A stretch of DNA of 64,000 nt from Pachyseris speciosa. Lineage: Eukaryota > Cnidaria > Anthozoa > Scleractinia > Pachyseridae. The stretch covers positions 297,001 through 361,000 of the forward strand of contig JAEMWC010000625.1 in the NCBI GenBank assembly GCA_016490735.1. The letters are read 5' to 3'. Shown one piece after another: positions 31,413-59,180 of the stretch. Position 1 is the stretch's first letter; each line of letters begins with the position of its first letter. The translations under genes were made by a program, and so were the position numbers. The notes under the pieces are model-generated. The model was not told where the DNA came from. It did not search any database and saw only the letters and a program-made list of their open reading frames with translations.

Positions 31413-31658
31413 AGTAGTAGTATCGGCGTCAAACAAATACCGTATTTTTGCGACACACCCTCCTCGCTTCGCTCGTCGGGTTTTGTCGCAAAAAAACGTG
31501 TATTCGTTTTACGCCGATACCACTACTGAAGTAAAGAAAAACACAAACCAAGGAAAGTGCGTCGGCCTATTAGAGAAAGGGGGGTAAGGGGCAAGAGTGA
31601 TGGCGGTTCAAGTGGAAAACCTTCGTTCAGCAGCAAATAAGTTTTTTGCCGGCGCAAA
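31413..31658 (+). repeat. Left terminal inverted repeat, including a 115-bp palindrome
   Basis: Matches the reverse complement of about 58939-59180. The outer 31413-31527 is a palindrome with 28-nt arms (31413-31440, 31500-31527) and further pairing TTTTGCGACA/TGTCGCAAAA inside, leaving a GC-rich centre around CCTCGCTTCGCTCG. The inner part contains a TATTAGAGAAA motif and the first ~20 codons of the terminal gene. Confidence 0.88.
31568..31578 (+). promoter_or_regulatory. TATTAGAGAAA motif, putative promoter element, site 1
   Basis: Ends 22 bases before ATG 31600 of the first gene. The same 11-mer is placed before other genes at 32167 (AATTAGAGAAA), 32378, 33388 and, inverted, 59017-59027. 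Confidence 0.55.
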
Positions 31659-32157
31659 CAACACATCAGAAACACTGAGACAGCCGCCAGTGCCAGCACT
31701 CCACAGAAAGCGGGCACCAGTGCCGGCCCGTCGCAAGCAGTCGGCGCCACGTCGGAGGTGGAAAGAAATGAAGGAGGAGATCATGCGACTATACCCCCTA
31801 TTCAAGGAGGAAGAAATTAACCAGGTCTCCATTTCACTTCCCCCTGAATTGTCTTTGCTTCGGTGTTGGAAATGCACTGGTTGCAAGGAGAGAACATTTT
31901 GTTTGAGAACCGGTGCTCCCCTCCCTACACCCCTATCTCCCCCCGAGGAGGGAAACTTTATTCCAGTTCGCTACGTGGTCCCTGAAAACTTCAGTTCCTT
32001 TCGTTGTTTGAAATGCACCGGCTGCAACGATGACGACGTCTGTCTCAGAACCGGAGCCCCACCACCCTTTTGGGTTGACAGGGATGTTCCTTCCGCTCGG
32101 ATGTGGGATGAATGGTTTGGGGTTTGGGATGCAGGTGGAGTGGGTGATGTGGAGTAA
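31600..32157 (+). CDS. Unknown protein with two Cys-rich CLRTGAP repeats
   Basis: 186 residues from MAVQVENL; the ATG lies inside the inverted repeat. The N-terminus is shared in part with the polymerase at the other end (AANKFFAGA versus AANNFGAGA). After a basic Pro-rich linker come two related blocks: LRCWKCTGCKERTFCLRTGA and FRCLKCTGCNDDDVCLRTGA, about 65 residues apart. Each has four Cys in a C-x2-C-x2-C-x5-C pattern that could bind zinc or form disulphides. The tail is Trp-rich (WDEWFGVWDAGG). Not recognised; possibly a small regulatory or host-interacting protein. Confidence 0.6.
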   Translation: MAVQVENLRSAANKFFAGANNTSETLRQPPVPALHRKRAPVPARRKQSAPRRRWKEMKEEIMRLYPLFKEEEINQVSISLPPELSLLRCWKCTGCKERTFCLRTGAPLPTPLSPPEEGNFIPVRYVVPENFSSFRCLKCTGCNDDDVCLRTGAPPPFWVDRDVPSARMWDEWFGVWDAGGVGDVE

Positions 32158-32166
32158 CGACACCCC

Positions 32167-32177
32167 AATTAGAGAAA
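32167..32177 (+). promoter_or_regulatory. AATTAGAGAAA motif, putative promoter element, site 2
   Basis: Ten bases after the stop of the previous gene and 18 bases before ATG 32195. One mismatch to TATTAGAGAAA. Confidence 0.5.
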
Positions 32178-32194
32178 GGCATCTTTCAGGTAAG

Positions 32195-32374
32195 ATGGAG
32201 GAGATAGACATGCTGGAAGAGATGCTCTTTGAGATGTGGACATCAGGAATATCACCAGAGATGGCAGGAGCAGTAATGCTTACACTTGTAGCGGAGGAGG
32301 TTGTCCTTGAGGAAGTAGAAACAACCCCTTTCAAACCAGAAGTGGTTCACAACCTTACAGCGGCGGCAGCATAG
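32195..32374 (+). CDS. Small acidic unknown protein
   Basis: 59 residues from MEEIDMLEEMLFEMW; the frame is open further upstream, but this ATG follows the promoter-like motif by 18 bases. Acidic and Met/Val/Leu-rich, predicted helical (MLTLVAEEVVLEEVE). No family recognised. It lies in a compact run of small genes on the same strand. Confidence 0.45.
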   Translation: MEEIDMLEEMLFEMWTSGISPEMAGAVMLTLVAEEVVLEEVETTPFKPEVVHNLTAAAA

Positions 32375-32377
32375 TTG

Positions 32378-32388
32378 TATTAGAGAAA
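32378..32388 (+). promoter_or_regulatory. TATTAGAGAAA motif, putative promoter element, site 3
   Basis: Immediately after the previous stop codon and followed by a GGGG run like site 1. The ATG of the next gene is 52 bases downstream. Confidence 0.5.
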
Positions 32389-32439
32389 TGGGGGGATAGG
32401 GCGACGGCACCGACTGATCTGCTGCGTTACAATGTCAGA

Positions 32440-32703
32440 ATGGCCTTGATCGAAGAGATAAACAAGTGGTTGGGGAGAAAGAAAAACGTGGATTCCCCCC
32501 ACAGAATTTCAATGCGCCATGTGCGCGATTTGTTAAGGCAGGATGTGGCGCCCTGGCAGTACATCAGGAAAACGAGGGACAACCATTTTATTGACGAATG
32601 TGCCCTTTGTTGTTGGATGGTAGCTCATTCTCTTTCCGAAGATGAAAAAGAGTTTATGGATAAATGGCTGACTGACGAGGGGTTTGATGACACGGTCCAT
32701 TGA
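32440..32703 (+). CDS. Unknown small protein with APWQYI motif, paralog 1
   Basis: 87 residues, MALIEEINKWLGRKKNVDSP onward, with VRDLLRQDVAPWQYIRKTRD in the middle and an acidic tail. The next gene carries a comparable block (FVRWLLQNNEAPWQYINNTN), so the two look like tandem duplicates about 25-30 percent identical by eye. Function unknown. Confidence 0.5.
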   Translation: MALIEEINKWLGRKKNVDSPHRISMRHVRDLLRQDVAPWQYIRKTRDNHFIDECALCCWMVAHSLSEDEKEFMDKWLTDEGFDDTVH

Positions 32704-32723
32704 ACAAATGGGAGACAAGATTA

Positions 32724-33071
32724 ATGGACGCCGAACGCTTCATTATATGTCGAAAGTTGGTTCTGAGAATTAACAGATGGCTTAACACTTTGGACAAACT
32801 CAACCTTCCCAAGGAGTATGAGCCAATGTTATTTGTTCGTTGGCTGTTGCAAAACAATGAAGCTCCCTGGCAATACATTAACAACACAAACGTTATACAC
32901 AATATTTGCTACGATGCACCAACTCCCATTCGAGTTGCGGGAGAAAATTTATCGCTACCATGTTCAAAACTAGCTGAAAGAAAGAGAGAAAATGGGCTGG
33001 CGTTGGGTTCACGAAGAACTTTTGGCTCCTCTTTTAAACTTCATTTTCCCAATGTGGTTTGCTTCTCATGA
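32724..33071 (+). CDS. Unknown small protein with APWQYI motif, paralog 2
   Basis: About 115 residues from MDAERFIICRK. The first ~70 residues align with the previous gene at INRWLNTLDKLNLP and APWQYI. The rest is unrelated and may follow a frameshift. It overlaps the end of the previous gene's non-coding gap without its own TATTAGAGAAA motif, so it may be read from the same transcript. Confidence 0.45.
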   Translation: MDAERFIICRKLVLRINRWLNTLDKLNLPKEYEPMLFVRWLLQNNEAPWQYINNTNVIHNICYDAPTPIRVAGENLSLPCSKLAERKRENGLALGSRRTFGSSFKLHFPNVVCFS

Positions 33072-33081
33072 CTATTAAACA

Positions 33082-33411
33082 ATGGCACCCAGAAGACAAA
33101 TGCATCTCTTGGAAAGAGTCAACCAACTCCCACCAGAGCTGAAGGAAAAAAATCCTTCAAGAAAAAATAAAAGCCCAAATTCAAGACAAAAAAGGGGCGG
33201 GTAGGGATGAAGTACACAGAGATCTCTTCTCTTTCTTCGAGGATGCACCTTTTTGTGAAATTGAAAATTGTTATACCTATGTCACATCCTGTGGAAAATG
33301 CTCCTCATGCAGGCTAAATGGTACTTGTTGGGCCTGTTGGTTGAAAAACAGGTACCACCAAGTATGTCTTCCGTATGAGGTGGAGGATATTAGAGAAAGA
33401 TGGAAATGAAT
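33082..33411 (+). pseudogene. Unknown Cys-rich protein, frame-shifted
   Basis: Starts MAPRRQMHLLERVNQLPPEL. A run of seven A near 33150 appears to shift the frame, after which the other frame reads through CGKCSSCRLNGTCWACWLKN to a stop near 33410. The LLERVNQLPPEL segment has an F-box-like look, but that is weak. Six Cys in the C-terminal block recall the Cys blocks of the first gene. Confidence 0.4.
33388..33398 (+). promoter_or_regulatory. TATTAGAGAAA motif, putative promoter element, site 4
   Basis: Overlaps the end of the Cys-rich frame. An ATG follows two bases later (33400), giving a 49-codon frame with duplicated CVGGQ; if transcription starts downstream, another start must be used. 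Confidence 0.4.
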
Positions 33412-33549
33412 GACCTGTACCCATGGTTGCCACATTTCTGCTCGCAATGTGTTGGTGGGCAATGTGTTGGTGGGCAATCGCAATCAAAATACAAGGATGG
33501 CCAAAAACTTTGGAAAGAGTGGTCGCTGACGAATTTCAGCGAGTCGTGA
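33400..33549 (+). CDS. Possible 49-residue protein with CVGGQ duplication
   Basis: Begins MEMNDLYPWLPHFCSQCVGG. It contains a 15-bp direct duplication (GTGTTGGTGGGCAAT twice). The LINE has inserted just after its stop. Too short for a firm call. Confidence 0.25.
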   Translation: MEMNDLYPWLPHFCSQCVGGQCVGGQSQSKYKDGQKLWKEWSLTNFSES

Positions 33550-33789
33550 AAGAACTCAAGAATGACGGTTTGGGGACTGGGTCGGTATGGCGAATGAATA
33601 AGACGTGAAATCTGTTGCTCCGAATGTGGTGTTTCGTATTTCCCTATTTCGCTTGATGTCAACGAAAAGAAAAACCCGATCTCAGTCATCTAGCGTTTCT
33701 ACATCTTCTATATCTTCACCGGAGGAAAAAAGTGTCGTGAAGCTTCTGTAGGCAGCGAGGAACGAGACGAAGTCTTCCAAGCTTTAAAC

Positions 33790-34563: not shown

Positions 34564-35024
34564 TTTTTTTGTTGTTGCTGTTTTTTCTTTTCTTTGCTGT
34601 TTAACGTTTTTAGAAAAGTGGAAAATTTGCATAATTTTCAAGCTTAATAATTGTAATCTGCTTCTGTGCTTTTTTTGTCACCTCCTTCTACTCCTCCGCC
34701 ACCTTTCGCACTATTACGTGACAAGTTGTTAGAGTAATGAAGCATTGTTTGTATCAAATATCACTGCTTTCGGAGCACTTCATTTATGCACGTCTAAGCA
34801 ACGGATATTGAAGGGGCTCTCACAAACACCTTTCGGAGCGCTCTCAGGGGTAAGTAAGCAGTCTGTTTGTCTTTCTATATGTTATGTCTTAATGGCTATT
34901 GTATGTTCTGTTTTGCTTATGTTACACTTTTTCTCACCCCGGATTTTATACTGCTTTTGTCTAAAACCCGATGAGGAAAACCTTCAAAATTACTTATGCT
35001 ATTTAGGCTTAAATTTCTAAAGTT

Positions 35025-38000
35025 ATGAGTGAAAACCTGATAATATGCTCCCTAAACGTTAGGGGCTTAGCAAATGTCTGGAAGAGAAGAGAGACCTTTC
35101 GATGGCTTAGATTGAAAAAATATTCTATATATTTCCTGCAGGAGGTTCATAGCACTATAGATGTCGAGGCGTGTTGGTTAGCTGAATGGGGCTACTCTGC
35201 GATCTTTAGCAGTTTCTCCAGTGCAAGCGCTGGAGTTTGTGTATTATTTAACAACAACTTTGTTTTTAAAATCTTAAGACAGTTCTCTGACCCAGCGGGA
35301 AGATTTATTATAGTTGATATTGAGACCGAAGACCGTGTTCTCACTTTAGTAAATATTTATGCGCCGAACCAGGATACCCCAAACTTTTTTAGAGATGTTG
35401 CTGATCATCTCTGTTCCTTCGAGTGCGAAGAAATATGCTTGGGAGGAGATTTTAACCTGGTATTAGATGTAACCAAGGATAAGAAAGGTGGAAATCCAGT
35501 GACTCACTTCAAATCGGTCATGGAGGTAAAACGCATGATGGCTGAACTTGATTTGACCGACATATGGCGTGATCTCCACCCCGATTCTTACGCAGTTACA
35601 TGGAGAAGAAGAAGGCCGGACATTTGTTGTCGATTAGATTTTTTTTTAATAAGTTCTGGTTTAAGCACAATTTGCATTCAAGCCGATGTCCTCCCTGGCT
35701 ATAGAACTGATCACTCCCTAATAACAATCGAACTCGATAATAAAACAAATCCTAGAGGGCCAGGGTTTTGGAAGCAAAATAATTCGTTTTTACTTGAAAG
35801 CGAGTATGTGAGCTTGATAAGAGAAACGATATCGGAAGTCGTAAATGAATATGCAAATAACGATGATGTGGATGCTGTACTTTTGTGGGATACAATGAAG
35901 ATGAAAATTAGAGCAAAGTCACTGGAGTACGCAAAGTCGAAGAAAAGGAAAGACAATTTTGACGAACAACTTCTCGAGTCAGATATCAGGTCTCTTAGTG
36001 AAAGGTTGGAACAAAAGGACTTATCTGACGGCAAAAGAATGATAATTTTGAACCAAGTTGAGGTTAAGACGGTAAGAAGAGATAAAATTTGCCAACACAA
36101 AACTCGAGGCTCAATAATAAGATCCAAAACGCGTTGGTACAATGAAGGTGAGAAAAATACCAAATATTTCTTAGGTTTAGAAAAAAGACATCACAACAAC
36201 AAAACCATCAAAATACTTCGATTGGCAGATGGTAGCCTTATTAGCACTGATTGTGAGATCCTAGAGGAAGCACAAAGATTTTATCGTAGCCTTTATTCAT
36301 CCTGTATTGCTTCTCAGGTAAATGAGTATGACGATCTTTTCTTTTCGGCGGGAGAAAACATTAAGGTAGCCGAACATGAACAGGGTGAATGTGAGGGTCC
36401 CTCGACTGAATCTGAGTGTTTTGCAAGCCTAAAAACAATGACGTCTAATAAAAGCCCAGGCAGTGATGGGCTACCTGTTGAGTTCTACAAAGTGTTTTGG
36501 AAGGATATTTCACAGTACCTCCTAAAAGCACTGAATGTCTCGTATGCCAAAGGCTGTTTATCTGTTACGCAAAGAAGAGGTCTAATATCATTGATCCCGA
36601 AAAAGAACAAAGATGCTAAATTGTTAAAGAACTGGAGACCAATAACACTTTTAAACTGCGATTATAAAATCGCATCAAAGGCTGTTGCAAATAGATTAAA
36701 GAAATTTCTACCGACACTTATTAATCACGATCAAACGGGCTTTCAAAAAAATAGGTTTATTGGGGAGAATATCAGGTTAATCGACAGTATAATAAATTAC
36801 GCGAAGGAAAAAAATGTACCCGGCCTGTTACTCTTTGTCGATTTTGAAAAAGCCTTTGATTCCCTGGAATGGAACTTCATTGAGAAAACCTTGGCGCATT
36901 TTAATTTTGGACCGTCTCTAAGAGCCTGGATAAGGCTTTTCTACACCGATATAACTAGCTGTGTACAAAATAATGGCTGGTCTTCTGACTTCTTCTATTT
37001 GAATCGCGGTGTTAGACAGGGATGCCCTTTGTCGCCATACTTGTTTCTGTTGTGTGCTGAGGTACTAGGAAATACTGTCCGAAATGATAAACAGATAAAA
37101 GGTATTAAAGTAATTAATTCAGAGTGCAAAATTAGTCAGTATGCTGATGATACTACAATGATTTTAGATGGATCAAAAGCGTCTTTTTTGCGGTCCATTT
37201 TTCTTTTAGATTCCTTCGCTTTAGTCTCTGGTCTACGTGCAAATTATGAAAAAACGGAATGTCTTTGGATTGGATCACGAAGTTCTTCTACAGATATTTA
37301 TTCATCAGGAAAACCAATTCAACTGGCGGATAAAAACGTTTTCGCTCTTGGAACTTGGTTTTCGACTGTTAATGAGCTCAAGCAGGCCAATTGTGCTGAC
37401 AGACTTGAAAAAATGAAAAACATTTTAAACAGCTGGTCAGCGAGGAGATTAACTTTACTGGGTAAAATTACAATTATAAAAAGTTTAGCGGTATCACAAA
37501 TCGTCTACGTATTATCTTCTCTCCCAACTCCCAGAGGTTTGCTGAAGGAAATCAATTCTCTGCTTTACGAGTTTCGGTGGGATGGTAAAGGTGATAAGAT
37601 TAAGAGGACTCAAATCATAAATAAGTATGATGAAGGCGGCTTGAAAATGGTGGACATTGACAGCTTTAGTAAAGCCCTTAAAATAAAATGGGTAGTAAAT
37701 TATCTCAATGACGATAGTCATGGTAAATGGAAGCTGTTTTTTGAATATTACTTGCAAAAACATGGCGGTAAGATGCTTTTCCAGTGTAATTTGAAAATTG
37801 AGGACGTACCTTTGCTTAAACTGCAGAATGCCTTCCTAGAGGAAATTGTGCAAATTTGGACGAATATCAATTATACCAACGAGGAGCAGGACTTCGGTAA
37901 TTCATGCATTTGGTACAATTCGCTGATAAGGATTGGCCACCGCCCCTTCTTCTACCAATCATGATTTAATGCAGGGTTAAAGTTGATTAAGGATTTAATG

Positions 38001-38760: not shown

Positions 38761-39099
38761 TGCAATCTCTTTTGGAGGTTTAGATGTGGAAAAAAGCAGT
38801 ATCTGGGAGGGGGAGTGTAACATGGGTAAGTAATGCAGTAAAGTGTCAAATGAGTTATAGTATGTAATATAAGTAATTGTTTTTAAATGTAAGTAGTATG
38901 CACCTGTGTCAAAGTAAGATGCCTTCCTGTACTTTACTGTGAACATGTGAACATTGTAGTATAATTTATGTAAAAGTATCTAGTCTTTCCGTAGTAATGT
39001 AAGTTATAAGTGAAACGAAATAAATAAAGAGTAAAAAAAAAAAAAAAGGTAATTCTCAGGTAAAAAAAAAAAAAAAAAAAAAAAGAATGACGGTTTGAT

Positions 39100-39545: not shown

Positions 39546-39564
39546 GGGTACCTCCTTGTCTTTT

Positions 39565-42739: not shown

Positions 42740-44795
42740 GAAGAGATTACTTAAAAAAGAAGCAGTTTTGTGCGGCTCCCCTTTGGCTTGGGATCAATAT
42801 AAACGTGCCCGGAACCACACAAACAACGAAAGTAAGAATGCTAAGCGTAAATATTTCACTGACAATCTCGAGTCTAGCAAATCAAATCCTAAAAAAACCT
42901 GGCAATTAAGTAATGAATTGTCCTCGCGACATCCAAACAAAGTGAGGAATATTGCGGAAATTAAGGTTAGGGAGCAAACTATAACTGAACCTTCTGAGAT
43001 AGCCGAAGAACTAAATCTGTATTTCTCAAGCGTTAGTGAGAAACTAGCCTCAGAAACACCGTCATCTAATGTCGAGCCTGAGTCCTACCTTGAAGCAACT
43101 GAAACAACTTTTTCTCTGAAAGATCCATCGGTGAACGTAGTTCCCAAATTGTTGACTAAACTAAACGAAAGGAAAGCTGCGGGCCTAGATAACATTCCAA
43201 CTAGACTTCTTAAAATGGCTGGCAACATAATCGCACCGTCGCTCACTCAAATATTTATAAAGTCGATTAACACTGGTATTTTTCCAACTGAGTGGAAACT
43301 CGCTAGAGTAACTCCTATTTTCAAAAAGGGCAAAGGGGACGACCCGAACAACTATCGACCAATATCCATTATTCCGACCTTTGCCATAATTTTTTCGCCA
43401 AAATTTTCGAAAAAATTATATACGACCAGCTTTGTGACTATCTTAATGATAACAACTTACTAACTCACTGCCAATCTGGATTCCGATCATTACACAGTAC
43501 ACTCACTGCATTGATTGAAGCCACAAATAGTTGGTTGGATAACGGCCTTGTAAATGGTGTAATTTTCATCGATCTGAAAAAAGCCTTCGACACCATCGAC
43601 CAAAGCCTCGGAAGTATGGTGTTGACACGAGTAGTCTCAAATGGTTTGAATCTTATCTCTCTGACCGAAGCCAAAAATGCAGCACAAATGGCCATTTAGC
43701 AAATACTGCCCCAGTCTCTTGTGGCGTCCCACAAGGTAGCAATCTTGGTCCACTCCTATTCCTAGTCTATATTAATTATCTTCCCAATTGCCTCACTTTA
43801 GCCTCTCCTAGAATTTTCGCTGATGATACTAATATGACCTTCGCTTCCAGTACGATGACTGATCTTGAGAATGCTGTAAACTTAGAACTAAGAAATCTTC
43901 AGCGCTGGCTTATAACCAATAGGTTAAGCCTTAATATCGCTAAAACTGAATTCATGGTAATTGGGTCAAATCAACGAATACATGCTCTATCGAATAATCA
44001 GATCGATATTGAGATCGACGGGAAATCGATCAAAAAAGTGGAAGAAGCTAAATCGCTGGGCTTGTTTATTGACGAACACCTTTCATGGACAAAACATATA
44101 GAAGAAATTAGTAAGAAGATATCCTCAGCCATAGGCGCTCTTAACTAATAAGACCATTGATTTCCGAAAGTAGCGCTCTTCAAATCTACCAAGCGTTGAT
44201 TTTGCCACACTTTGACTATTGCTGCCCTGTTTGGGATGAACTCAGCGTTACCTTTAGTGAAAAACTCCAGAAACTCCAAAATAGGGCTGCCAGGGTCATT
44301 ACCCGGTCCAGTTATGACACTAGTGCCAGTATTCTCCTAAATAGGCTCAACTGGGACAATCTTACCACACGAATTGATTTGATTTGATTTGATTTTGATT
44401 TGAAGGAAAAAGCTTAAGGCGATGTTAATGTTTAAAATAGTTAAAGGGCTTTCCCCAGCGTACCTGCAATATTTATTTAGCATCCGTAGTACACCGTATA
44501 ACTTAAGAGATACTGAGATTAAACTAAACCTGCCCAAGCCACGCACGAACTATTGTAAGCGTGCCTTGGGCTACAGCGGGCGCTACTATGGAATAGCCTA
44601 CCCGTAAATTTAAGAAAATCAGACTCTCTTGGATATTTTAAAAGGGAACTTGACAAATTTTACAGCGATTGTCAGTCGGGCTCCCACACGGCAATCTTGT
44701 AAAACAGTGTTGTTTTAATTAATTTTATTAATGTACTACAAACTGAAGATTTTACCGTGTATAAATAAATAAAGTATGTATGTATGTATGTATAT
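42740..44795 (+). mobile_element. CR1/L2-like LINE fragment, 5' truncated
   Basis: Reverse transcriptase only: LNERKAAGLDNIPTRLLKMA, RVTPIFKKGKGDDPNNYRPI, GVIFIDLKKAFDTID, CGVPQGSNLGPLLFLVYI and the catalytic IFADDTNMTF, then the C-terminal LQNRAARVITRSSYDTSASI. Frames change at about 43400, 43465, 43700, 44150 and 44400. No endonuclease. The 3' end is AATAAATAAAG followed by a (TATG)n microsatellite instead of poly(A), typical of the CR1/L2 group. It interrupts the gene whose remaining part is at 44800-45280. Confidence 0.8.
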
Positions 44796-45280: not shown

Positions 45281-45338
45281 TATATATGCAGAATGAAAAA
45301 TTCCAAACTATGAACCCAGCTCGGCGGGGAAAAATTGG

Positions 45339-45917
45339 ATGCAGTGCCACCCGTCCATGCCCGAGGATATTTTTCGGATGTTAATTTGTGGACCAAGCGG
45401 TTCCGGCAAGACAAACATTTTGCTCCACATGATTTTAAAGCTGTTGGATTACGACAAGGTTCTGCTTTTCTCGAAGAACCTTCACCAAAACAAGTACCAG
45501 GCCCTTTTGGACCACTTTGCTGAAAAAATCAACCCCAAGGTGGGTTACGAAGTTATTGAGGCGTTTGGAGGGGACGACATCATTCCTCTCGAGGAGCTTC
45601 CCCTCCCCGAGGATGGGCCCGACAACCAGAAGATTGTTGTCTTTGGTGATTCGGTTTGCGAAAAAAACCAAGACAACATTGTGGAATACTTCGTTGGTGG
45701 TCGACACCACAACTGCGCTGTGATTTATCTTTCGCAGGACTTTTTCAAAACCCCCAAAATTATCCGTGACAACTGCAGCCATTTCTGTATTTTAGCTTTC
45801 CCTGAAAGAGAGAACAGACGGATCGCTGCCGATCTGGGGGTGAATCCCGACCTGCTGAAACGCGCAACCGACAAAAATTGTAATTTTTTTATTACGACAA
45901 GCCGAAGAAAGAGATGA
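45339..45917 (+). CDS. Packaging-type ATPase of the Polinton-like element
   Basis: 192 residues, intact. Walker A is LICGPSGSGKTN near residue 17. Walker B is KIVVFGDSV; relatives usually carry two acidic residues here (hydrophobic-D-D), so Gly-Asp is a possible loss of one. VEYFVGGRHHNCAVIYLSQD corresponds to the sensor block. Shorter than the ATPase at 8632-9384 and only distantly similar. It is divergent from the Pro-rich gene with a ~58-bp gap. Would drive DNA packaging. Confidence 0.78.
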   Translation: MQCHPSMPEDIFRMLICGPSGSGKTNILLHMILKLLDYDKVLLFSKNLHQNKYQALLDHFAEKINPKVGYEVIEAFGGDDIIPLEELPLPEDGPDNQKIVVFGDSVCEKNQDNIVEYFVGGRHHNCAVIYLSQDFFKTPKIIRDNCSHFCILAFPERENRRIAADLGVNPDLLKRATDKNCNFFITTSRRKR

Positions 45918-46552: not shown

Positions 46553-46700
46553 AAAGTGCCTTTCACCGTTTTCGACCAAATTTTCTTTGCACAAGATGGG
46601 CGAATGGTAATGCAAACTGATTTAGATATCAAATGAAGAATGATCCTCGCAGTTATGAACGCAATTTATGCAATTGCGAAAAGAAGCCCGAAAAAATTCA

Positions 46701-46748
46701 GGACTTCAACGGGGTTCGAACCCGTGACCTCGCGATTACCGGTGCGAT

Positions 46749-46774
<26 letters not shown>
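46701..46774 (-). tRNA. tRNA-Thr-like sequence (pseudo-tRNA), copy 3a
   Basis: 74 nt with consensus boxes TAGCTCAGTTGG and GGTTCGAACCC and an intact acceptor stem; among the best-preserved of the nine copies. Confidence 0.45.
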
Positions 46775-46789
<15 letters not shown>

Positions 46790-47003
46790 AGGTCAATTGT
46801 GGGTTCATATGATCCGTGAAAGAAATGAGTATGAATGATATATGAAATGAATCATATATGATTTTCGCAATTGCATAAATTGCGTTCATAACTGCGAGGA
46901 TCATTCTTCATTTGATTTCATTTCCGCAGTTCATATATGATTCATTTCATATATCATTCATACTCATTTCTTTCACGGGATCATATGAACCCACAATTGA
47001 CCT

Positions 47004-47018
<15 letters not shown>

Positions 47019-47044
<26 letters not shown>

Positions 47045-47092
47045 ATCGCACCGGTAATCGCGAGGTCACGGGTTCGAACCCCGTTGAAGTCC
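47019..47092 (+). tRNA. tRNA-Thr-like sequence (pseudo-tRNA), copy 3b
   Basis: Same consensus boxes as 3a. Followed by TGAATTTTTTTCAGGC, a small hairpin plus T run that could serve as a Pol III terminator. Confidence 0.45.
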
Positions 47093-48333
47093 TGAATTTT
47101 TTTCAGGCTTCTTTTCGCAATTGCATAAATTGCGTTCATAACTGCGAGGATCATTCTTCATTTGATTTCATTTCCGCAGTTCATATATGATTCATTTCAT
47201 ATATCATTCATACTGATTTAGATATATTAACACACAGGGTGGTGAACAAAGGGCAGGGTGGGTTTCACATAGAGGATGGGGGCATAACGACCTTGGATGA
47301 ACATTTGAATATGAACGGTTTTCTCCTTTTTCGAGCAAAGGTGGGTACTGGTTTGGATTTGAACAATACCGCTGTCACAAATGGAAATGTCGTTTTGTTT
47401 CAAAGCTCCCCCACGCGGTTGACTATGGGAGTCACTCTCGATATCGGGGGGGGGGGGGGAATTTGGCGACTAATTGGAAATTGAGTAATTCTTTTGACCT
47501 GAACGGACAATACATCACCAACGGAAGTAATGTTTTGTTTGGGGGAAACGATCAACAAATGGTTTTACACACCGACTTGAATGAAAACGGGTACAGTGTG
47601 GTTGGAAAGAATGGGGGCGGCTTTGAAGTAGATGATGATGGTAGAACAAAATTGCATGGTGATTTGGATTTGAACGGGCATAAAATTCATGAAGTCATTG
47701 ATTTTAACGGCGGGCGCCCCAGATTGGTGAACGATTTTTATTTGGGTGGCAGAAAAATAATGAGTGGCAGCACACCGCTGTTGGAATATCGTCAAAACAC
47801 AAGATTCCTCCGGCCGTTTAATCTTCCCGAAACAATGACAATTGTGTTGGAAAGTGATTTCGTTACGAGTGAAGGCACTGGTGGAGCAAATAACCAGAAC
47901 CCGTGGACATTTGTTAGAATTTCAAGACTTTGGCAACCTTACACCGCATTTCAAAGAATATTGAGTGTGAACTCGACTTCTTATAGCGGAGAATTGCCTC
48001 ATAACATAAATTTGAAGATTACTTGCCACATAGGTGATTTTGTTTCCCCCAAAGACAGATGGTTCACGTTTCCGAAAAGAAATGTGTCAAAAAAAATAGA
48101 TGTTAATATGATAATTGAAGATGACTGCAGATATATTGCTTCTTAGTTACAAAACCTGAACAGAAACATCAGGGTAAAACTGCAAGTAACTTTCCGCTCA
48201 TAAATAAATCCTGTTCAAAAAACCCCAACACCACTGTCGTCTGAAATTGTTTCTGACAGAAAGCCGCTCCCTCCCCCTCTCAACATTTTTTACTTCAACC
48301 ACATCGACCCAACCCTTCGAAGGACACCGTCGA

Positions 48334-49316: not shown

Positions 49317-49341
49317 CTTACCCACTGTTTATATGTTCAAT

Positions 49342-50375
49342 ATGGAAAAACACCTTTCAAAAATTTATTACAGCCCGCAAGGTTATTGGAAGGGGTTTGC
49401 CGCGGTGAAAAATCTAGCCCAAGCCGCAAAGGTTAGGAACCTGTGGCCAAACAATGGTTGCAAAGGCAGGCGCTTTGGCAGATCTTTCTTCCCGCGCCGC
49501 GGCCAATTCCTCGATCGAAGTTTGACGTGCTAACACCCAACGCGGTGCACCAAGCCGATCTGCTCTTCATGCCGCACGACAGAATGGGAAGAAAAACTTT
49601 CACATACGCGCTGACTTTGGTTGACGCAGCCAGCTGCTTCAAGGCAGCTGAGCCTCTGACCTCGAAAAATTGTGACGAGGTGACTCGGGCCTTTGAAAGG
49701 ATTTACAAGCGCGGGCATCTCAAGTGGCCAAAGCTGCTGCCAGTGGACCCTGGACGAGAGTTCATGGGTGCTGTTTCAAAAATCATGGGGGCGCGTGGAA
49801 CGAACATCCGCCGTGGACATGTGGAAGTGCATCGCGACCAGGCGATTGTGGAACGCTTCAACCGCATTCTTGCTGCGCGTCTGTTCGGACACCAGTATGC
49901 TGTCGAAATGCGGCTTACGGGTTTGAAACCCACAGATGCGATCCGAGAACAATCCGTTTTTGCACAGCCTGCAACTCCGTATTTCAGGCCTTTTGGCGCG
50001 GCCGAAAAAAAGCTTCCCCTTGGCGTGGAAGTACGCTATCTGTTTCAACCTGGTGAGTTGGAAGGTGGTACGAGAAGGGCCACAGATCCAATCTGGTCTC
50101 TGCAAACTTTCACGGTGGGCAAGGTCATGGTGAAACCCAGCCAACCTGTCATGTATTGGCTTTCCGATGGACCGAAACGAAGCTTCGTGCGCGAAGAGTT
50201 GATGGTTGTCCCCCCGAATACCGAATTACTCCAACCAACCCAAACTAGTTGGAAAGGTGAAACTCAATGGGTTCTGTGTGAATACCATCCGGCAGCACCC
50301 ACCGCTTGTCGTAATAGGCGCTCAGACCCAACTTGTGCTGCTCATACGTCAACATCCGCCCATTCTTCATTCTGA
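49342..50375 (+). pseudogene. rve integrase of the Polinton-like element, one frameshift
   Basis: Starts MEKHLSKIYYSPQGYWKGFA; a two-base shift near 49430 moves to the frame 49443-50375. The catalytic core shows VHQADLLFM (Asp), LPVDPGREFMG (Asp) and VHRDQAIVERFNR (Glu). The C-terminal part has PIWSLQTFTVGK and GPKRSFVREEL, an SH3-like or beta-rich end rather than a chromodomain. Between EMRL and TGLKP the spacing seems shorter than I recall for the family, suggesting an internal deletion. It differs clearly from the integrase at 2388-3572. Its last codons run into the opposing polymerase 3' end. Confidence 0.75.
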
Positions 50376-50872: not shown

Positions 50873-51056
50873 TGTAGTGTACACTGTATTAGACCGGAAG
50901 TTTACCGGAAACCATTTCTGGGTTTCCCAAGATGCGTAGTGGGGTTGGTTGTAATGTGAATGTGTGTGTTCGGGGAAGCCATATTGTGTTAGCGTTAGAC
51001 GTTGTGTTCATCCTGTAACATCGAGGCAGCTAGCCATTAAAGGACGAGATTTCACA
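50873..51056 (+). repeat. 5' LTR of the gypsy element
   Basis: Starts TGTAGTGTACACTG and ends GATTTCACA. Short (184 bp); no clear TATA box seen. Confidence 0.92.
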
Positions 51057-51142
51057 TCTGGCGACGAGGATGGGATGGTAGAGGACACCTTCGTTGTAGT
51101 TTCAAGTGGGCTTCGTATTTTGTGGAGGCACGGGTTGTTGTG

Positions 51143-54100
51143 ATGCCCGGAGGTTCGAGCGAAGCAGGGAGTTCGGCGAGTGCCGCCAGTAGCAGTGAAG
51201 TTTCGACGCCTGTGGCTGTTGAAGTTGGGGGATTACAGCCTTTTCAAGTTAAGGGAGATCCGCATTCCATTTCACAGCGTTGGAAAAAATGGAAAAGGGC
51301 TTTTCAGTTGTACGTGCTAGGAAAAGGAGTCACGAATGATCCGCAGAAACGAGGTCTTCTACTTCACACGGCCGGCCTGGAGGTACAAGAAGTTTTCTTT
51401 ACCCTTGTGTCTGACGGTGAGGACAAGGACTACGCCGCCACTTTAAAGGTATTAGATGATTACTTTATCCCTAAAGCCAACGTGCCTTTCGAAAGACACG
51501 TATTCAGGCAAATTGGCCAAAATAGCGAGGAGACTGTTGATCAATTTGTCTGTCGGTTGAGACAACGTGCAGCCTCGTGTGACTTCGGAGAGCGGGAGGA
51601 TGAGTACATCAGAGATCAGCTAATTGATAAATGCTATTCAGCAAAGTTGCGTAGGAAATTTCTTGAAAAACAAGGCAGTGTTACGTTGAATGACCTTTTA
51701 ATAATTGCCAGGGCACAGGAAGCAGTTGATTTGCAAATGGAAGCAATGGGAGGGAACGCTTGTTCAGAGCAAGTGAACAGTGTCACTGATGTAAAGTTTG
51801 GTGTGAACAGTGAGAAGAGAGAGTGTTTTAACTGTGGTCGGGAGGACCATCTTGCTAGAGATTGGAGATGCCCTGCTAGAGGTCGTAAATGCGATCAATG
51901 TGGAGCAGTCGGTCATTTTAAGGTTAAGTGTCATAAAAGGCCACAGCGAGGTTCCCAACAGTGGCAGAAACAAGGTGCCAGCAGTTGGGGTAGGAAAATT
52001 GATCCAAAAGGAACTGATAGGGGCAGGAAGACCAACACCAATTATGTTGACAGTCACGCTGATGGAGAGGTGGAAAAAGGGGAAAGGCCTAATTCTACAT
52101 ATGAGTATGTGTTTTCTGTGGGAGATGAGGTGAATCACAGTGATGGAATAGTAACCCTGCAGATTGGAGGAGTCATTTTGCCAAATGTTCTAATTGACTC
52201 AGGGGCGACATGCAACCTTCTTGGGAAGGAAACCTGGGAGTGGCTCAAGAATCAGAACGTCCAGTGTCAGACCCGCAAAGAAGCTAAGGCCTTATTTGCA
52301 TATGGAAACACCAGACCACTGCCAACACTAGGAACATTTACAGCGGATGTCTCGTCAGCGGACACAAATGTCACCTGTGAAGCTGATTTCGTGGTCTTGG
52401 ATGGAAATGGCAGAACTCTCCTTTGTCGAGACACAGCTGAGAAATTACATCTGCTGCGTATTGGACCTATGCATGCTGTGAACAGTGTTGGAGCAGAGGC
52501 TATGGGGCAAGATATCAAGGACAAATACAAGGAACTGTTTAATGGTGTAGGTCTCCTTAAGGGCTATGAGTTGAAGCTGAACATCGACGAGTCTGTGAAG
52601 CCGGTGGCACAACCTGTACGAAGGATCCCATTTGCTGTAAGAGAGAAAGTGGAGAGAAAGCTAGATGAATTACTGGTAAATGGAATAATAGAAGAGGTAC
52701 CTGAGGGGCCAACTGGGTGGGTTTCACCACTGGTCGTCGTACCCAAACCTGATGGGGACATTAGAGTTTGTGTCGATATGAGACGTGCAAATCAGGCGAT
52801 TATCAGGGAGCGTCAGCCCATCCCGACAGTTGAAGAAGTTCTCCAAGACCTAAATGGCAGTACAGTGTTCAGTCGAGTGGATCTGAAGTGGGGATTTCAC
52901 CAGATACTTCTTGCAGAAGAAAGCAGGCATGTGACAACATTTGTTACCCACCGCGGCCTTTACAGATACACCCGACTCATGTTTGGAGTGACCTCAGCAC
53001 CTGAAAAATATCAACAAATCATCCGGGATGTACTACGTGGCTGTGATGGTGTGGTCAACATTGCAGATGACCTGGTGATCCATGGAAAGGACCTTGAGCA
53101 GCATGACGAGAGGCTTTTTGCTGTCCTTGACCGGTTGAAGACGGCTGGTTTGACGTTGAACGAAAGCAAGTGTGAGTTCAGGCTACCAAGGTTGACATTC
53201 TTTGGGCATGAAGTAACACAGAATGGTGTGAAACCCAGTGAAGAGAAAATTGCAGCAATCCTACATGCAGACCCACCACAGAATGCCAGCGAAGCAAGAT
53301 CTTTCCTAGGTCTGGTTCAGTTTGTGTCTAAGTTTGTTCCAGACTTGTCATCTGTCGCGGAACCGATCCAGAGACTAACTCACAAGAATGTAGAATTCAA
53401 GTGGCACCCAGAACAGCAGACTGCATTTGAGAAGTTAAAGGAACTGATCACGAGTGCAAATGCTCTGGCTTACTTCAATGTAGGTGGCAGAACAAGAATT
53501 GTTGCAGATGCATCCCCTGTGGGTCTTGGAGCGGTGTTAACTCAGTTGCAGGGCAGTGAGTGGAGAGTGATTGCTTATGCCTCAAGACGGCTGACAGATG
53601 TAGAGAGGCGGTACAGCCAAACCGAGAAAGAGGCCCTCGCTCTTGTGTGGGCTTGTGAACGCTTTAACATGTATGTTTTTGGAAGAGAATTTGAGCTAGA
53701 AACGGATCACAAGCCGCTGGAGTACATTTACTCACCAAAGTCAAAACCTTCAGCCCGGGTGGAACGGTGGGTCCTTCGCTTGCAGGCTTATGACTTCAAG
53801 GTTGTCTACAGGCCAGGCAGAACCAACATTGCAGATGCTTTGTCCAGACTGAATTGCAAGTTCCGTGGTGATGATGGAGAACATTACGACTATGTCCATG
53901 CTGTAGCTGAGAGCAGCGTCCCTTGTTCCCTGATGTCCACTGAAATAGAGGAGGCTTCAGCTGGTGATCTGGAACTAAACCTTATTAAGGAATGTGTGAG
54001 AACGGGAGACTGGAGTAGGTGTAATGTCCCTGCCTACTTGCAAGTGAAGAACGAATTGTGTACCTTTGGTCAGCTGCTGCTGCGTGGTTCCAGGCTGGTA

Positions 54101-55288
54101 ATTCCCAAGGTGCTGAGAGAGCGTGTTTTGCAGTTGGCCCACGAAGGGCATCAGGGCATTGTCAAAATGAAATGCAGGCTACGTAGTAAGGTTTGGTGGC
54201 CCAAGATGGATACCGATGCGGAGAAATTGTGCAAGAGCTGTCATGGTTGCCAAGCTGTCAGTGAATATGCTGCCCCAGAACCTATGGCACGAGCCTTCCC
54301 ACCAAGCGGACCGTGGCAGGATTGCGCTGCAGATATATTGGGCCCTCTACCTTCTGGAGAGAATCTGCTTGTTGTGGTCGATTATTATAGCCGATATTTT
54401 GAAGTAGTTATCCTGAAGTCAACTACAAGTGCCAAGATCATTGATAGCCTTAAACCGATATTTTCTCGATTTGGAGTGCCCTATACACTCAAAACTGACA
54501 ACGGTCCCCAATTTGTTTCAGACGAATTTGAAGCCTTTCTCGCAGAAAATGGGATAGAACACCGCACAACACCACCGTTGTGGCCACAAGCCAATGGGGA
54601 GGTGGAACGCCAAAATCGCACATTGCTGAAAGTGATCCAGATTGCTCAAATTGAAGGGAAAGATTGGCGCAAGGAACTGCAGACATTTCTAATTGCATAC
54701 AGATCAACCCCTCAGATGACAACCGGGGCAACGCCATTTTACTTGATGTTCGGGAGGGAGATGCGAACCAAGCTACCAGACCTGAGGCGTGAGGCACCTA
54801 TCACCAGCGAGGAGATTCGTGACCGAGACTGGGCAAAGAAGCTGTCCCAAAAAGAATATGTTGATGCTAGGAGGCATGCGGTGGAGAACCAAGTAGAAAC
54901 TGGGGATAAAGTCCTCCTGAGAAACATGAAAACAAACAAGCTGTCCCCAAACTATGATCCAAGTCCTTGTGAAGTACTGGACAGAAAAGGAGGAGAGGTG
55001 ACAGTTAGGAACAAAGATGGTGTTGAGATAAAGCGGAACGTGTCATTTGTGAAAAAGTACAATGAGAGACTCGCAGAAAGTGTAAACACTGGACATCTAG
55101 AGCAGCAAGACGTGGTCGAAACAGGGGAAACTAAGGGGGAACGCGAACCCCCAGAGCCGACTTGTTCGACAAGACCTGTGCAGCCCATCGTTAGCCCGAG
55201 TCTGGCTCAGCAGATGACTAGCCCGAGGCCAACTCGAACTATTAGACTACCCAAACGATTTGATGATTATGAACTGTCAAAAAGGTGA
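51143..55288 (+). CDS. Gag-Pol polyprotein of the Ty3/gypsy element
   Basis: About 1381 residues from MPGGSSEAGSS; the upstream GTG codon at 51122 is not needed. Gag: WKKWKRAFQLYVLGKGV region and zinc knuckles CFNCGREDHLARDWRC, CDQCGAVGHFKVKC. Protease: VLIDSGATCNLLG. Reverse transcriptase: VSPLVVVPKPDGDIRVCVDM and the catalytic VNIADDLVIHG. RNase H: IVADASPVGLGAV and ETDHKPLEYI. Integrase: HEGHQGIVKMKCRLRSKVWW, CKSCHGCQ, DILGPL, KTDNGPQFVS and NGEVERQNR. The order PR-RT-RH-IN defines Ty3/gypsy. No stop or shift, so it could be active. Confidence 0.95.
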   Translation: MPGGSSEAGSSASAASSSEVSTPVAVEVGGLQPFQVKGDPHSISQRWKKWKRAFQLYVLGKGVTNDPQKRGLLLHTAGLEVQEVFFTLVSDGEDKDYAATLKVLDDYFIPKANVPFERHVFRQIGQNSEETVDQFVCRLRQRAASCDFGEREDEYIRDQLIDKCYSAKLRRKFLEKQGSVTLNDLLIIARAQEAVDLQMEAMGGNACSEQVNSVTDVKFGVNSEKRECFNCGREDHLARDWRCPARGRKCDQCGAVGHFKVKCHKRPQRGSQQWQKQGASSWGRKIDPKGTDRGRKTNTNYVDSHADGEVEKGERPNSTYEYVFSVGDEVNHSDGIVTLQIGGVILPNVLIDSGATCNLLGKETWEWLKNQNVQCQTRKEAKALFAYGNTRPLPTLGTFTADVSSADTNVTCEADFVVLDGNGRTLLCRDTAEKLHLLRIGPMHAVNSVGAEAMGQDIKDKYKELFNGVGLLKGYELKLNIDESVKPVAQPVRRIPFAVREKVERKLDELLVNGIIEEVPEGPTGWVSPLVVVPKPDGDIRVCVDMRRANQAIIRERQPIPTVEEVLQDLNGSTVFSRVDLKWGFHQILLAEESRHVTTFVTHRGLYRYTRLMFGVTSAPEKYQQIIRDVLRGCDGVVNIADDLVIHGKDLEQHDERLFAVLDRLKTAGLTLNESKCEFRLPRLTFFGHEVTQNGVKPSEEKIAAILHADPPQNASEARSFLGLVQFVSKFVPDLSSVAEPIQRLTHKNVEFKWHPEQQTAFEKLKELITSANALAYFNVGGRTRIVADASPVGLGAVLTQLQGSEWRVIAYASRRLTDVERRYSQTEKEALALVWACERFNMYVFGREFELETDHKPLEYIYSPKSKPSARVERWVLRLQAYDFKVVYRPGRTNIADALSRLNCKFRGDDGEHYDYVHAVAESSVPCSLMSTEIEEASAGDLELNLIKECVRTGDWSRCNVPAYLQVKNELCTFGQLLLRGSRLVIPKVLRERVLQLAHEGHQGIVKMKCRLRSKVWWPKMDTDAEKLCKSCHGCQAVSEYAAPEPMARAFPPSGPWQDCAADILGPLPSGENLLVVVDYYSRYFEVVILKSTTSAKIIDSLKPIFSRFGVPYTLKTDNGPQFVSDEFEAFLAENGIEHRTTPPLWPQANGEVERQNRTLLKVIQIAQIEGKDWRKELQTFLIAYRSTPQMTTGATPFYLMFGREMRTKLPDLRREAPITSEEIRDRDWAKKLSQKEYVDARRHAVENQVETGDKVLLRNMKTNKLSPNYDPSPCEVLDRKGGEVTVRNKDGVEIKRNVSFVKKYNERLAESVNTGHLEQQDVVETGETKGEREPPEPTCSTRPVQPIVSPSLAQQMTSPRPTRTIRLPKRFDDYELSKR

Positions 55289-55478
55289 CTGAACACTGTT
55301 ATTTGGGGACCTGCTAGCAGCTGAACTTTGCATCTTACCGAACTGAACTTTGTTTCATGTTATAGCATTTAAGCTTGTGCTCCTGTTATATATATATATA
55401 TGTATTTTTGTTGGAGTTTTATTCCTTACAACAGCATGCTGTATTGTTTTCCTTAAAAAAAAAAAAAACATGGAGGGA

Positions 55479-55662
55479 TGTAGTGTACACTGTATTAGAC
55501 CGGAAGTTTACCGGAAACCATTTCTGGGTTTCCCAAGATGCGTAGTGGGGTTGGTTGTAATGTGAATGTGTGTGTTCGGGGAAGCCATATTGTGTTAGCG
55601 TTAGACGTTGTGTTCATCCTGTAACATCGAGGCAGCTAGCCATTAAAGGACGAGATTTCACA
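55479..55662 (+). repeat. 3' LTR of the gypsy element
   Basis: Identical to the 5' LTR, preceded by an A tract and TGGAGGGA. Confidence 0.92.
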
Positions 55663-55667
55663 AAACC

Positions 55668-58600
55668 GCTCTCGCATTCTTGGTTTGACCATGTCTTCGA
55701 TTTTGTGGGAGCTGCTCGCCATGTACAGACTGTCGGTGTCCATCTGAATCAGTTCGAAGTTCCGCCGGTCCATGAATGTGAGGAGGAAGTCGTAATAGAA
55801 CTGCAACACCAGCAGCTTTGCCAGCTGATACACCGCAATACCAATCTGAAATGGACGGCTGATCTTTATCTGTCTTTTGCGGGTTTCGATTTCAAATGCA
55901 CCTCCAACGAGATTGAGCGCTGTTGCCGAGCAGTTTGAACACATCTGCCAACAGAGCTTTGTCCCTGTCCTTGCTCCTTCCTTTCTTGCTTCTGTGACTT
56001 GGTCGACAAACCAAACGAATGGTCTTCGGGGGGAGTACTCAATGGTGCCATAAACGGCTGTAATAACAGCTTTGTGTTGCAGATACCAAAACAGTAGCGG
56101 AGCGTAAAGCAAAGTTTTCTCTGTTTTCAAAGCTCAAACCAATCTTCTTCCATTCCCCCTGTTGCGTTTGGTTCTTTTCATGTAATCTTTCATGTGCTCT
56201 GGCACTGCATCCTCAGGAATTTCTTTGTTGACGAAGAAAGGGGGAATTTCCTGAAACACAGGCCAAAGCTGCTTGGGGATTTCGATATCAACCTCAGCAA
56301 AGCCGAACCATTTCTTTGCCAGAACCATTTTTGTGAAGGCGGCAACGTGGTGTGGATCTCCTGGTCTTTCAAAATGTTGAACTTCTCCTTTTCCACAAGG
56401 CATTTCTTTTGCCATTGTGGATAAATACAGGGCGTTGGCGTCGTATCCCAAGATTGCTTCACATTTCTTTGGGTTTTGGTATTGGTGGCCGCGGATGAAC
56501 GTTTCGCCAGCTGCGTGGTAACGGGTGAACACCATACTTGGCCCACCGACAACCGCGCCTTTCACCATTGTGTATGCTTCCTCGTCTGGATTCCACAACC
56601 CTCGGTTTCCTTTCTCTTTTGCAAGTTCGCGGAGTGCTCCGTCCAGAAGATAACGTAGACTGACACCTGGGATTGACAAAGCGTCTTTCAACATGTCGAT
56701 GTTTTTCTCTGCGTAAAACTCTTTCATTTTGGTAATCGCTTCGATACCGGGCCGCACATCCAGATCGTTGTAAAAGCGCAACCAGTCTGAAAAGGTTTTC
56801 ATTCCTTTCTCGTGGAACAACTTCTTGCACTTTTTCCATTCACTGCGCGTCAGAACAAACTTTTCTTTCAACTTCGAATACCAATGTGGATAGTCGGGAA
56901 GACCAGGGAAATCCAGCTTGTCGCCTGAATCAAACCATTCGTATAGCAACCACCATTTCTGCCCTGCACATTTGAAAGATTTTACCCAAGCATCGTAATC
57001 TGTTCCAGGACCAAGATAGTTGATGATGTCAAGAAACAACTGATGTTCTGATGTACATAATTTTGTTGGTTGACTTTGCGACTTGGCAGTCCCCCTCTTC
57101 GTCAGTCATTTTTTCCACAAAGTGACTTTTTATCATGTTGAGGTTGTATTTTTCGCTGTTGAAACCAACCACGGGCACTTGGTGACACCAGTCGAATAGG
57201 TTTTGCTGCGCACTTTTGGGAAGGTATTTGTGGTCAGTGAGGAGGAAATTTTTGAGGACGTTTCCTCTGATTCTTTTTACTCTGGCTTCCAACTCTTCCA
57301 CAGATGCTTTGACCAGCTTTTCTGGGTTTTTGTCCTGCAAGTGGGTGATTCGTTCTTGAAAGTTGTTGCCGATTGAAACAGAAATTGGTGTGTGCGCATT
57401 TACGAAACGGAGATCTGTTGTTGCCCGAAGTTGTTCGTTGTGGTTCATTATCGCTTCGAAATCGAAGAATATGAAGAAGGGATAGATGGTGTGTTTGTAG
57501 TCGGGCATTTGCAGCGGTTTTTTAATGGGTTCGGAATCCCATTCCCATTCCTCACCTTGTGGTTGACTGTTTTCTTGGTCGAACTCACACTCCCACTTCT
57601 CGATCACTTCGAAATCCTCTGCTTCCAATTTTTCTTTGATTGTTTTCGTTTCTTCGAAAAGCTGTCTCGGTGTTTTCCCCTTCTTGGTTGGTGTGTCAAA
57701 CTTGTAACGGTTACAGAAAGGGCAGCCGTGGTAAAAACACCCATGAAAGTGGAAGATCTTTTTGCGTTCCAGGTTGAAACCGTCAACAGGAAACCAAGCC
57801 ACATATCTTTCGCTCCCGTGCCCAAACATTTGATGGTGGATGTGGAACTCCCTTTCTTTCTTTTCCCTTTCAATCCAGATAACAGCTTTGGAGAAAACCT
57901 TGGGAAAGGGAAAGAAGGCAGAGTTTGGCAATTGTGTTGGTTTGTTGGGACAGTTAATTTTTGTTTTCCCTTCGGTGCATCTTTCAAAATGTCTGTGAAG
58001 ATCACAAGATATTGTGAACCGCGCGCGAAAAACCCCACAACCATAGTTTTGATCAGCGTTTGAATTTTCTTGATCAGAAACGCGTGTCATCCCCAATGTC
58101 AGGATTGTTTTCATTTGCTCACATGGTCTTCTTCTCAAATACCAATAAACCTCTTCGTCATCTTGTTTTTCAGGCTCGAAAAATCTGATTCCAATCAAGT
58201 CTGTTATTGGTCGATCTTGGTTCAAAAACTCTTCCACGTTTCCCATCTGTTTCAAAGAAATGGGTGGAGCATCTTTAGCCTTGTTGGTTTGGAAAAACCC
58301 TTTTGCAAGTTGTTGCGCCGTTCTTTCGCAACGATCGATGCGGGCTCCATTGAAAATGGCAGTACAACGCCACACACAAAGGTTGTCGTTCTCCCCATCC
58401 ACTGACACCATTGCGCGACTGTGGGCTTGATTGTTCAACCATTTGAGAAGTTTTCCTTCACCCAACAAAGGTTCCCTGTCGTACACAACTTTCAAATCCA
58501 CAGTTTTGAATTCCACTAACCGCCATTTTCTGTCTGGAAAGAGAAGTGGTTCACTTTCTCTTTCTCCCTCTTTTTCCCTCAGCCAGGCCCTTCCTTCACT

Positions 58601-58996
58601 GATTCTTTGAAAGAGTGGTGAGGTGCGATCCATATGGTATTTCTCAATTTCTGCATCGCCTTCGTCCCGCCCATGTTCTTCTGGTTTCAGCTCAAGTTTA
58701 TAGGAATAGTTGTACACAAGGCGAAATGCCCGTTCTGCGTTTTCACTTATTGCTGTGGTGAATTTTTTTGTCAGATCGTTGGCAAGCCCAGCAGTTGCTT
58801 GCCAAACTGTGAGAGCCTTTCTCCCTCGTCCTCTTTGAAACCCATCATAGCGCAGAATTGATGGATCGCGTGCCCAAGGAGTTGGTATCTCTGTTTTAAG
58901 AATGGTGGTACGCCCAGCCATTCCGCGGGTGGAATTTCTTGCGCCAGCACCAAAATTATTTGCTGCTGGTTGAAGGTTTTGACTCACGGCCGCCAT
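55668..58996 (-). pseudogene. POLB: Polymerase B of the Polinton-like element, main part
   Basis: Starts MAAVSQNLQPAANNF at 58996, 21 bases after a TATTAGAGAAA motif. Frames: 58996-57029, 57039-56134, 56130-55668, with shifts near 57035, 56132 and 55990. Blocks: CDLHRHFERC zinc-like pattern, FHFHGCFYHGCPFC insert, exonuclease FFDFEAIM, second exonuclease block GFNSEKYNLN (Asn where the first Polinton has Asp), motif A GYDANALYLS, motif C IQMDTDSLYM. The motif B region reads GNSA in one frame and then breaks off, a likely deletion. Protein-primed replication is the family role. Confidence 0.85.
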
Positions 58997-59180
58997 CACT
59001 CTTGTCCCTTACCCCCTTTCTCTAATAGGCCGACGCCTTTTCCTTGGTTTCCTTTTTTCTTTACTTGAGTAGTAGTATCGGCGTCAAACAAATACTCGTT
59101 TTTTCCGACAAAACCCGACGAGCGAAGCGAGGAGGGTGTGTCGAAAAAAACCGTATTTGTTTCACGCCGATACTACTACT
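58939..59180 (-). repeat. Right terminal inverted repeat, including a 113-bp palindrome
   Basis: Palindrome arms at 59068-59095 and 59153-59180, 28 nt each. The rest aligns with the left repeat through the TATTAGAGAAA motif into the first codons of the polymerase. Confidence 0.88.
59017..59027 (-). promoter_or_regulatory. TATTAGAGAAA motif, putative polymerase promoter
   Basis: Exact copy of the left-end motif, 21 bases upstream of the polymerase ATG, with the same G-rich spacer. Confidence 0.55.

Follow-up and report, generated by a model that had tools for sequence, protein, structure and literature searches.

The 64,000-nucleotide stretch of the Pachyseris speciosa genome that we analysed (the window) carries at 31413-59180 a 27.8-kb element with Polinton genes, both ends of which are long terminal palindromes. 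Polintons are already known, and we file hairpin ends with co-varying arms as a new variant of them. Our reading, to which we give a probability of roughly 0.55, is that the element represents a group of Polintons whose co-varying palindromic ends fold in cis, the outer arm being rewritten from the inner arm ahead of protein priming. At the level of sequence this is supported by many independent insertions with a palindrome at each end, by arms that co-vary, by tips fixed in their orientation, and by two ends that appear to have been over-extended and re-tipped.

A preliminary description of this DNA had claimed terminal palindromes nested in inverted repeats of about 245 bp, with a 5-bp GCGCG duplication in satellite DNA, and all of this is confirmed: the palindromes are 115 and 113 nt long, the inverted repeats (31413-31660 and 58939-59180) are 87% identical, and the duplication sits in 137-bp satellite DNA. 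Folded in silico as single-stranded DNA, as that description had recommended, the left and right ends form strong hairpins (-35.7 and -38.2 kcal/mol, z -7.9 and -8.7), and none of 200 shuffles was as stable as either. Two contrasts that it drew with Polintons do not hold. The element itself begins with AG (AGTAGTAGT), and Mavericks are known to end in (AGT)2, which is among the tips of intact vertebrate Mavericks with 6-bp duplications (PMC8097293). A 5-bp duplication is likewise not abnormal, as the literature gives 5-6 bp for mavirus and for Maverick/Polinton elements alike (PMC8547959). When 252 other AGTAGT-like sites in the window were scanned blind on both strands, one other place passed, at about 25073-25144 (four overlapping sites).

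All related ends come from integrated copies in one genome of 984 Mb. Three DNA searches, in each of which 40 of 124-133 candidates were scored, together with fetched stretches gave 110 ends besides the two of the element. Under our strict test a palindromic end has an AGTAGT-like start and a first 30 nt that pairs with sequence within 330 nt, and 97 of the 112 ends passed. Among the 15 failures, seven have a mutated AGTAGT start and are recognisable as palindromes by eye (L051, L059, L066, L070, L085, L115, L121), five lack outer-arm sequence and keep the palindromic core (L054, L069, L073, L091, L094), one (L061) reads N, and two (L027 and L035, 2 of 112) have no palindrome. The main search queries included the palindrome, and a fairer count is that of ends found solely through sequence outside it: 19 of 21 have the palindrome, and once host duplicates are removed 13 of 15 do. 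In a later search 15 of 16 further ends passed, duplicates included (L142 fails; L149 and L150 were read from the inner side); these 16 are excluded from the statistics, and five of them (L143, L145, L148, L155, L156) serve in duplication pairs. Dropping 11 host duplicates from the 97 passing ends leaves 86 independent ends with different flanks, in which the palindrome is 51-207 nt long (median 166.5). Palindromes of related ends differ widely in sequence, and one group holds palindromes of 84, 116 and 174 nt, reflecting stem insertions and losses. Tip motifs divide the ends into groups A, B and C, between which L078, L087 and L089 are borderline; these groups and a fourth, D, to which window 25073-25144 belongs, have the AGTAGT tip in common.

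Target site duplications could be read at AGTAGT in 23 left/right pairs, of which 13 have exact 5-bp, six exact 6-bp and four imperfect duplications; the count excludes pairs with a truncated end, and contigs C172 and C75 are treated separately below. In several of the 5-bp pairs, C535a, C408, C535b and C609 among them, moving the boundary by one base permits 6 bp; the same shift gives no 6-bp duplication for the window element's own pair. The preliminary description had proposed to check whether every copy has the palindrome and a 5-bp duplication: the palindrome is present in most ends, left and right, and the duplication is not always of 5 bp. It had also allowed for the palindrome being an independent small repeat, picked up at this single locus. 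We found no evidence in support of this, and it is refuted by other copies with the same boundary at left and right, with duplications.

The two arms of the palindrome match each other far better than they match the arms of other ends. Over the first 20 positions the 86 independent ends have a mean of 0.92 arm mismatches (one end has 11), compared with 7.30 per 20 bp when arms are shuffled among ends (standard deviation 0.35, minimum 6.13 in 2000 shuffles); in a smaller set of 29 ends arm identity is 0.857 as against 0.676 shuffled. Perfect 18-nt stems are found in 46 ends and comprise 26 different sequences. On trees built from the 150 nt next to the palindrome, parsimony counts about 121 joint changes in A and B together and 30 in C, beside 47 and 32 mismatched end-positions respectively, though the sequence behind these trees is short and the joint-change numbers are inflated by register shifts. 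Compensated changes make up 53% of stem differences between closely related independent insertions and 80% between more distant ones, in a comparison whose pairs are not independent. Host-duplicated copies serve as a control: in 20 pairs with a common flank, the set including L009-L012 (contig C59), L028, L029, L032, L033 and L042, all 25 stem differences are in a single arm and none is compensated, from which it follows that matching of the arms takes place during replication of the element and not in the chromosome. In C59 a left palindrome of 116 nt and a right one of 172 nt lie within one 6-bp duplication, which suggests that pairing is kept within one end. The persistence of matched arms in most ends, despite sequence change, suggests that copying probably restores each end from its own sequence.

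Two ends may record this process. In C172 (L013) the palindrome continues for 13 nt beyond the usual AGTAGT with the exact reverse complement of the element interior, and then a new AGTAGT follows; the outer AAAGG equals the AAAGG of the right end provided that the last base of the latter was substituted. In C75 (L108, L124) the palindrome is extended by 49 nt, 46 of them identical, and then come five AGT repeats, flanked by CCATG at the extended end and CCATA at the left. Both look like the product of a 3' end that folded back, copied sequence beyond the inner arm and was then re-tipped. Shorter extensions, of 5 nt in L119/L120 and about 6 nt in L121, could be due to chance.

The ends of parvoviruses such as adeno-associated virus (AAV) and of poxviruses exist in flip and flop forms, and the preliminary description had likened the present ends to them. 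If the element used a parvovirus-like rolling hairpin or poxvirus-like closed telomeres, with an end that primes itself, is nicked and is inverted, palindromic ends would be expected, and the fold-back over-extension in two of them would fit as well. However, all 59 comparisons in A and C (26 and 33 respectively, host duplicates included) show the palindrome in one orientation, and in B the tip motif is forward in 19 ends, reversed in none and unclassified in 15. The arms also have features of their own, for example an extra base of the inner arm near position 22 in 74% of A ends and 58% of B ends. The motif GCGAAGC, a stable mini-hairpin, is, where present, always on the strand that has the terminus as its 3' end (4 of 19 ends in A, 18 of 34 in C, 0 of 33 in B) and never on the opposite strand in groups A, B and C. 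Scoring the whole palindrome in B gave 26 same, 3 flipped and 6 ambiguous against L040, and 27, 1 and 7 against L030; since B stems are nearly symmetric this score, with 1-3 weak flips of 35 depending on the reference, is uninformative. Replication of the parvovirus or poxvirus type is thus not supported, with no flipped end in 59 comparisons or among the 19 classifiable B tips, and we consider it largely refuted and very improbable. By eye, the palindrome tip of L026 looks partly inverted relative to its relatives.

Another explanation is that integration involves binding of the palindrome, either in duplex form or extruded as a cruciform, by the rve integrase or by a partner. It draws on the exactness of the AGTAGT boundary, accompanied in 19 of 23 pairs by a duplication of 5 or 6 bp, and on the short motifs AGTAGTA and CAAATAC, which recur in both arms; the stem between the motifs, however, keeps its pairing with little conservation of sequence. 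A second Polinton in the window (899-15631), which we use as control, also integrates with an AGTAGT tip and a 6-bp duplication but lacks a terminal palindrome (finder score 17 at either end, threshold 34). Its ends outdo most shuffles in folding (z -2.8 and -2.9, with 0 and 2 of 200 shuffles as stable) but fall far short of the hairpin ends, and a genome search with one of them gave, among the 42 matches listed, no reverse self-match of the kind typical of the palindromic groups. We therefore regard the integrase explanation as unlikely, while recognition of palindromic ends by the integrase is itself possible. Marginally less probable to us is a palindrome without a role, a by-product repeatedly made and mended by template switching at the replicating end. 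Template switching does create and mend hairpins (PMC8794818), and the stem insertions and losses that give 84, 116 and 174 nt in one group, like the tip of L026, are of the kind it could produce. Against it, 97 of 112 ends in several groups keep the palindrome over large divergence, with fixed orientation and persistent bulges, and the equally AGT-ended control family shows no palindrome.

For ends that fold in cis and are rewritten from their own inner arm, the steps would be as follows. Protein-primed replication would displace single strands, on which each end could fold on itself in cis as a hairpin. The folded 3' outer arm would be extended by the polymerase and mended with the inner arm as template, and the rebuilt duplex AGTAGT end would be the start for synthesis primed by the terminal protein, which would lay down the AGT tip by jumping-back synthesis. 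Fold-back rewriting of this kind would account for the matched arms, the fixed orientation, the drift of the stem and the re-tipped ends, and template switching (PMC8794818) may be how the arms become matched. A hairpin origin in a protein-primed form is possible. More tentatively, and as an idea somewhat short of probable, we suggest that a virus-like lineage keeps up its linear ends by self-templated telomere repair, each end holding an inverted spare copy of itself on which the 3' strand folds back and from which it is rewritten before the terminal-protein polymerase adds a fresh AGT cap to the end so formed. If so, stem sequence would drift freely, with both arms changing together.

Several points weigh against the fold-back reading. 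All the evidence comes from a single genome. The over-extended ends are only two, and the duplication of each requires one substitution. Rewriting of the arm is not complete, since most ends of A and B retain systematic bulges (outer ACAAATAC, inner ATCAAATAC). Between the left and right ends of one element, 25 of 45 differences (20 pairs) are in a single arm, and 10 of the 15 compensated ones belong to a single pair whose register was shifted in the reading; as left-right differences are mostly single-arm, the argument for pairing in cis rests mainly on C59. Co-variation does not prove function, as template switching alone can match arms (PMC8794818). PolB of the window copy is in pieces that score under the Pfam cut-off, and capsid genes were not identified.

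The element has the hallmarks of a Polinton, with PolB, an rve integrase, a packaging ATPase and AGT-tipped terminal inverted repeats (TIRs) with a 5-6-bp duplication. A protein search with the integrase gave 2595 matches, and the best 120 of the 2595 are 58-62% identical to it, mostly with PF00665. The PolB palm piece is 83% identical over 224 amino acids to its relative in C831, which matches DNA_pol_B_2 with E 7.2e-11. The open reading frame (ORF) at 57032-59008 has 70% identity to the ORF adjoining the PolB piece in C831 and five protein relatives, each with PF03175, one of them from the octocoral Paramuricea clavata. As the N-terminal part of PolB it is likely the terminal-protein/exonuclease region, and we infer a polymerase of the protein-primed type. 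For a capsid protein or maturation protease, conserved ORF pieces were tried against Pfam and PHROG with no convincing match; no HUH nickase was present among the part of the ORFs scanned with Pfam, and we found no relatives of the element in viral contigs. We take a long interspersed nuclear element (LINE) ORF, a reverse transcriptase (RT) fragment and a Gypsy element to be later insertions into the Polinton. Retrotransposon sequence accounts for some 8 kb or more of the element's 27.8 kb, and the Gypsy insertion is likely recent, as its 184-bp long terminal repeats (LTRs) are identical.

To our knowledge the replication mode of Polintons has been inferred and never observed. Polinton particles have also not been observed (PMC8097293). 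The present element resembles Polintons/Mavericks in its PolB, rve integrase, A32-type ATPase, AGTAGT TIRs and 5-6-bp duplications (PMC8097293, PMC8547959), and differs in having terminal palindromes whose arms co-vary. Neither hairpin nor palindrom occurs as a word in the main texts of PMC8097293, PMC10120064 and PMC12220804, and in PMC11071308 hairpin occurs once, within a reference title. We found no report of hairpin-ended Polintons in the literature searched, which covered few subscription papers and is weak evidence of absence.

Displaced strands of adenovirus pair end to end, and the kalilo mitochondrial plasmid is a protein-primed linear plasmid. A deletion derivative of kalilo forms hairpin and duplex DNA (reference title in PMC11071308). 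Bombyx bidensovirus has a Polinton-derived PolB and inverted terminal repeats (PMC4061559), but these repeats form a panhandle and no hairpin (PMC4061559, PMC4938981). Streptomyces telomeres are closer, with protein-primed ends, packed 3'-strand palindromes and a terminal palindrome complementary to an inner one; the 3' overhangs of these telomeres fold and are bound by Tap, and in vitro they are able to fold back and be filled in (PMC4513846). They differ in being bacterial, with an internal replication start and Tap/Tpg, where here we have an integrating eukaryotic element with PolB. Parvovirus (AAV) and poxvirus termini are likewise self-folding, but theirs flip and flop (for poxvirus see the title of PMC8956199) and here orientation is fixed. 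By this comparison the best reading is that the hairpin ends work more like the terminal-protein-capped palindromic telomeres of Streptomyces than like parvovirus or poxvirus ends. Co-varying arms are sequence evidence that ends fold during replication of the element, and the over-extended, re-tipped ends can be read as replication intermediates frozen in the chromosome. This links protein-primed elements to hairpin-ended ones, and the manner of replication becomes a question that can be tested with short synthetic DNA.

Table. Features of the window, with those of the hairpin-ended element first
Feature	Position	Strand	Basis or remarks
Hairpin-ended Polinton with retrotransposon insertions	31413..59180	.	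TIRs, duplication, genes
Left target site duplication	31408..31412	.	GCGCG
Left terminal palindrome, 115 nt	31413..31527	+	AGTAGTAGTATCGGCG... to ...CACTACT
Left inverted repeat, inner non-palindromic part	31528..31660	+	contains block GGCCTATTAGAGAAAGGGG; ORF start at 31600
Inserted LINE ORF	35025..37964	+	RVT_1, Exo_endo_phos
RT fragment	43543..44145	+	RVT_1 E 1.9e-12
A32/FtsK-type packaging ATPase	45297..45914	+	Pox_A32 E 2.8e-11
rve integrase	49437..50372	+	rve E 4.6e-4, below Pfam cut-off
Inserted Gypsy element	50873..55662	+	two identical 184-bp LTRs
PolB, palm part	56137..57105	-	DNA_pol_B_2 E 2.3e-4, below Pfam cut-off
PolB, N-terminal part (likely terminal-protein/exonuclease region)	57032..59008	-	Pfam: no match
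Right inverted repeat, inner non-palindromic part	58939..59067	-	
Right terminal palindrome, 113 nt	59068..59180	-	
Right target site duplication	59181..59185	.	GCGCG
Ordinary Polinton (control)	899..15631	.	AGTAGTGTA ends, 6-bp duplication AGTGTG, no terminal palindrome
Second AGTAGT hairpin, right end of a family D element	25073..25144	-	element body to left; finder, sequence; fold z -9.2

In the C831 copy of the hairpin-ended element a single open frame (L050:94-1710) fuses the A32-type ATPase to a collagen-like repeat. The control Polinton has an rve integrase (E 1.4e-12) and an Adeno_IVa2-like ATPase (E 1e-4); its PolB ORF gives no match to Pfam DNA_pol_B_2 and shares 43% identity with the PolB piece of C831.

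Among ends related to the family D hairpin, L159 and L160 have the full palindrome, and L158 and L161 are cut inside it; the tip motif of L158-L160 is CCTCCTCGCTTCGCTCGTCGGG or a variant. ORFs to the left of this hairpin match a PHD finger and YqaJ recombinase. The window also holds a family of fold-back repeats, long nested inverted repeats with a unit of about 250 bp, at 6489-7142, 20814-21824 and 46625-47219. They contain a GGTTTGAACCC stretch that is tRNA-like in appearance, and one copy lies inside the hairpin-ended element.

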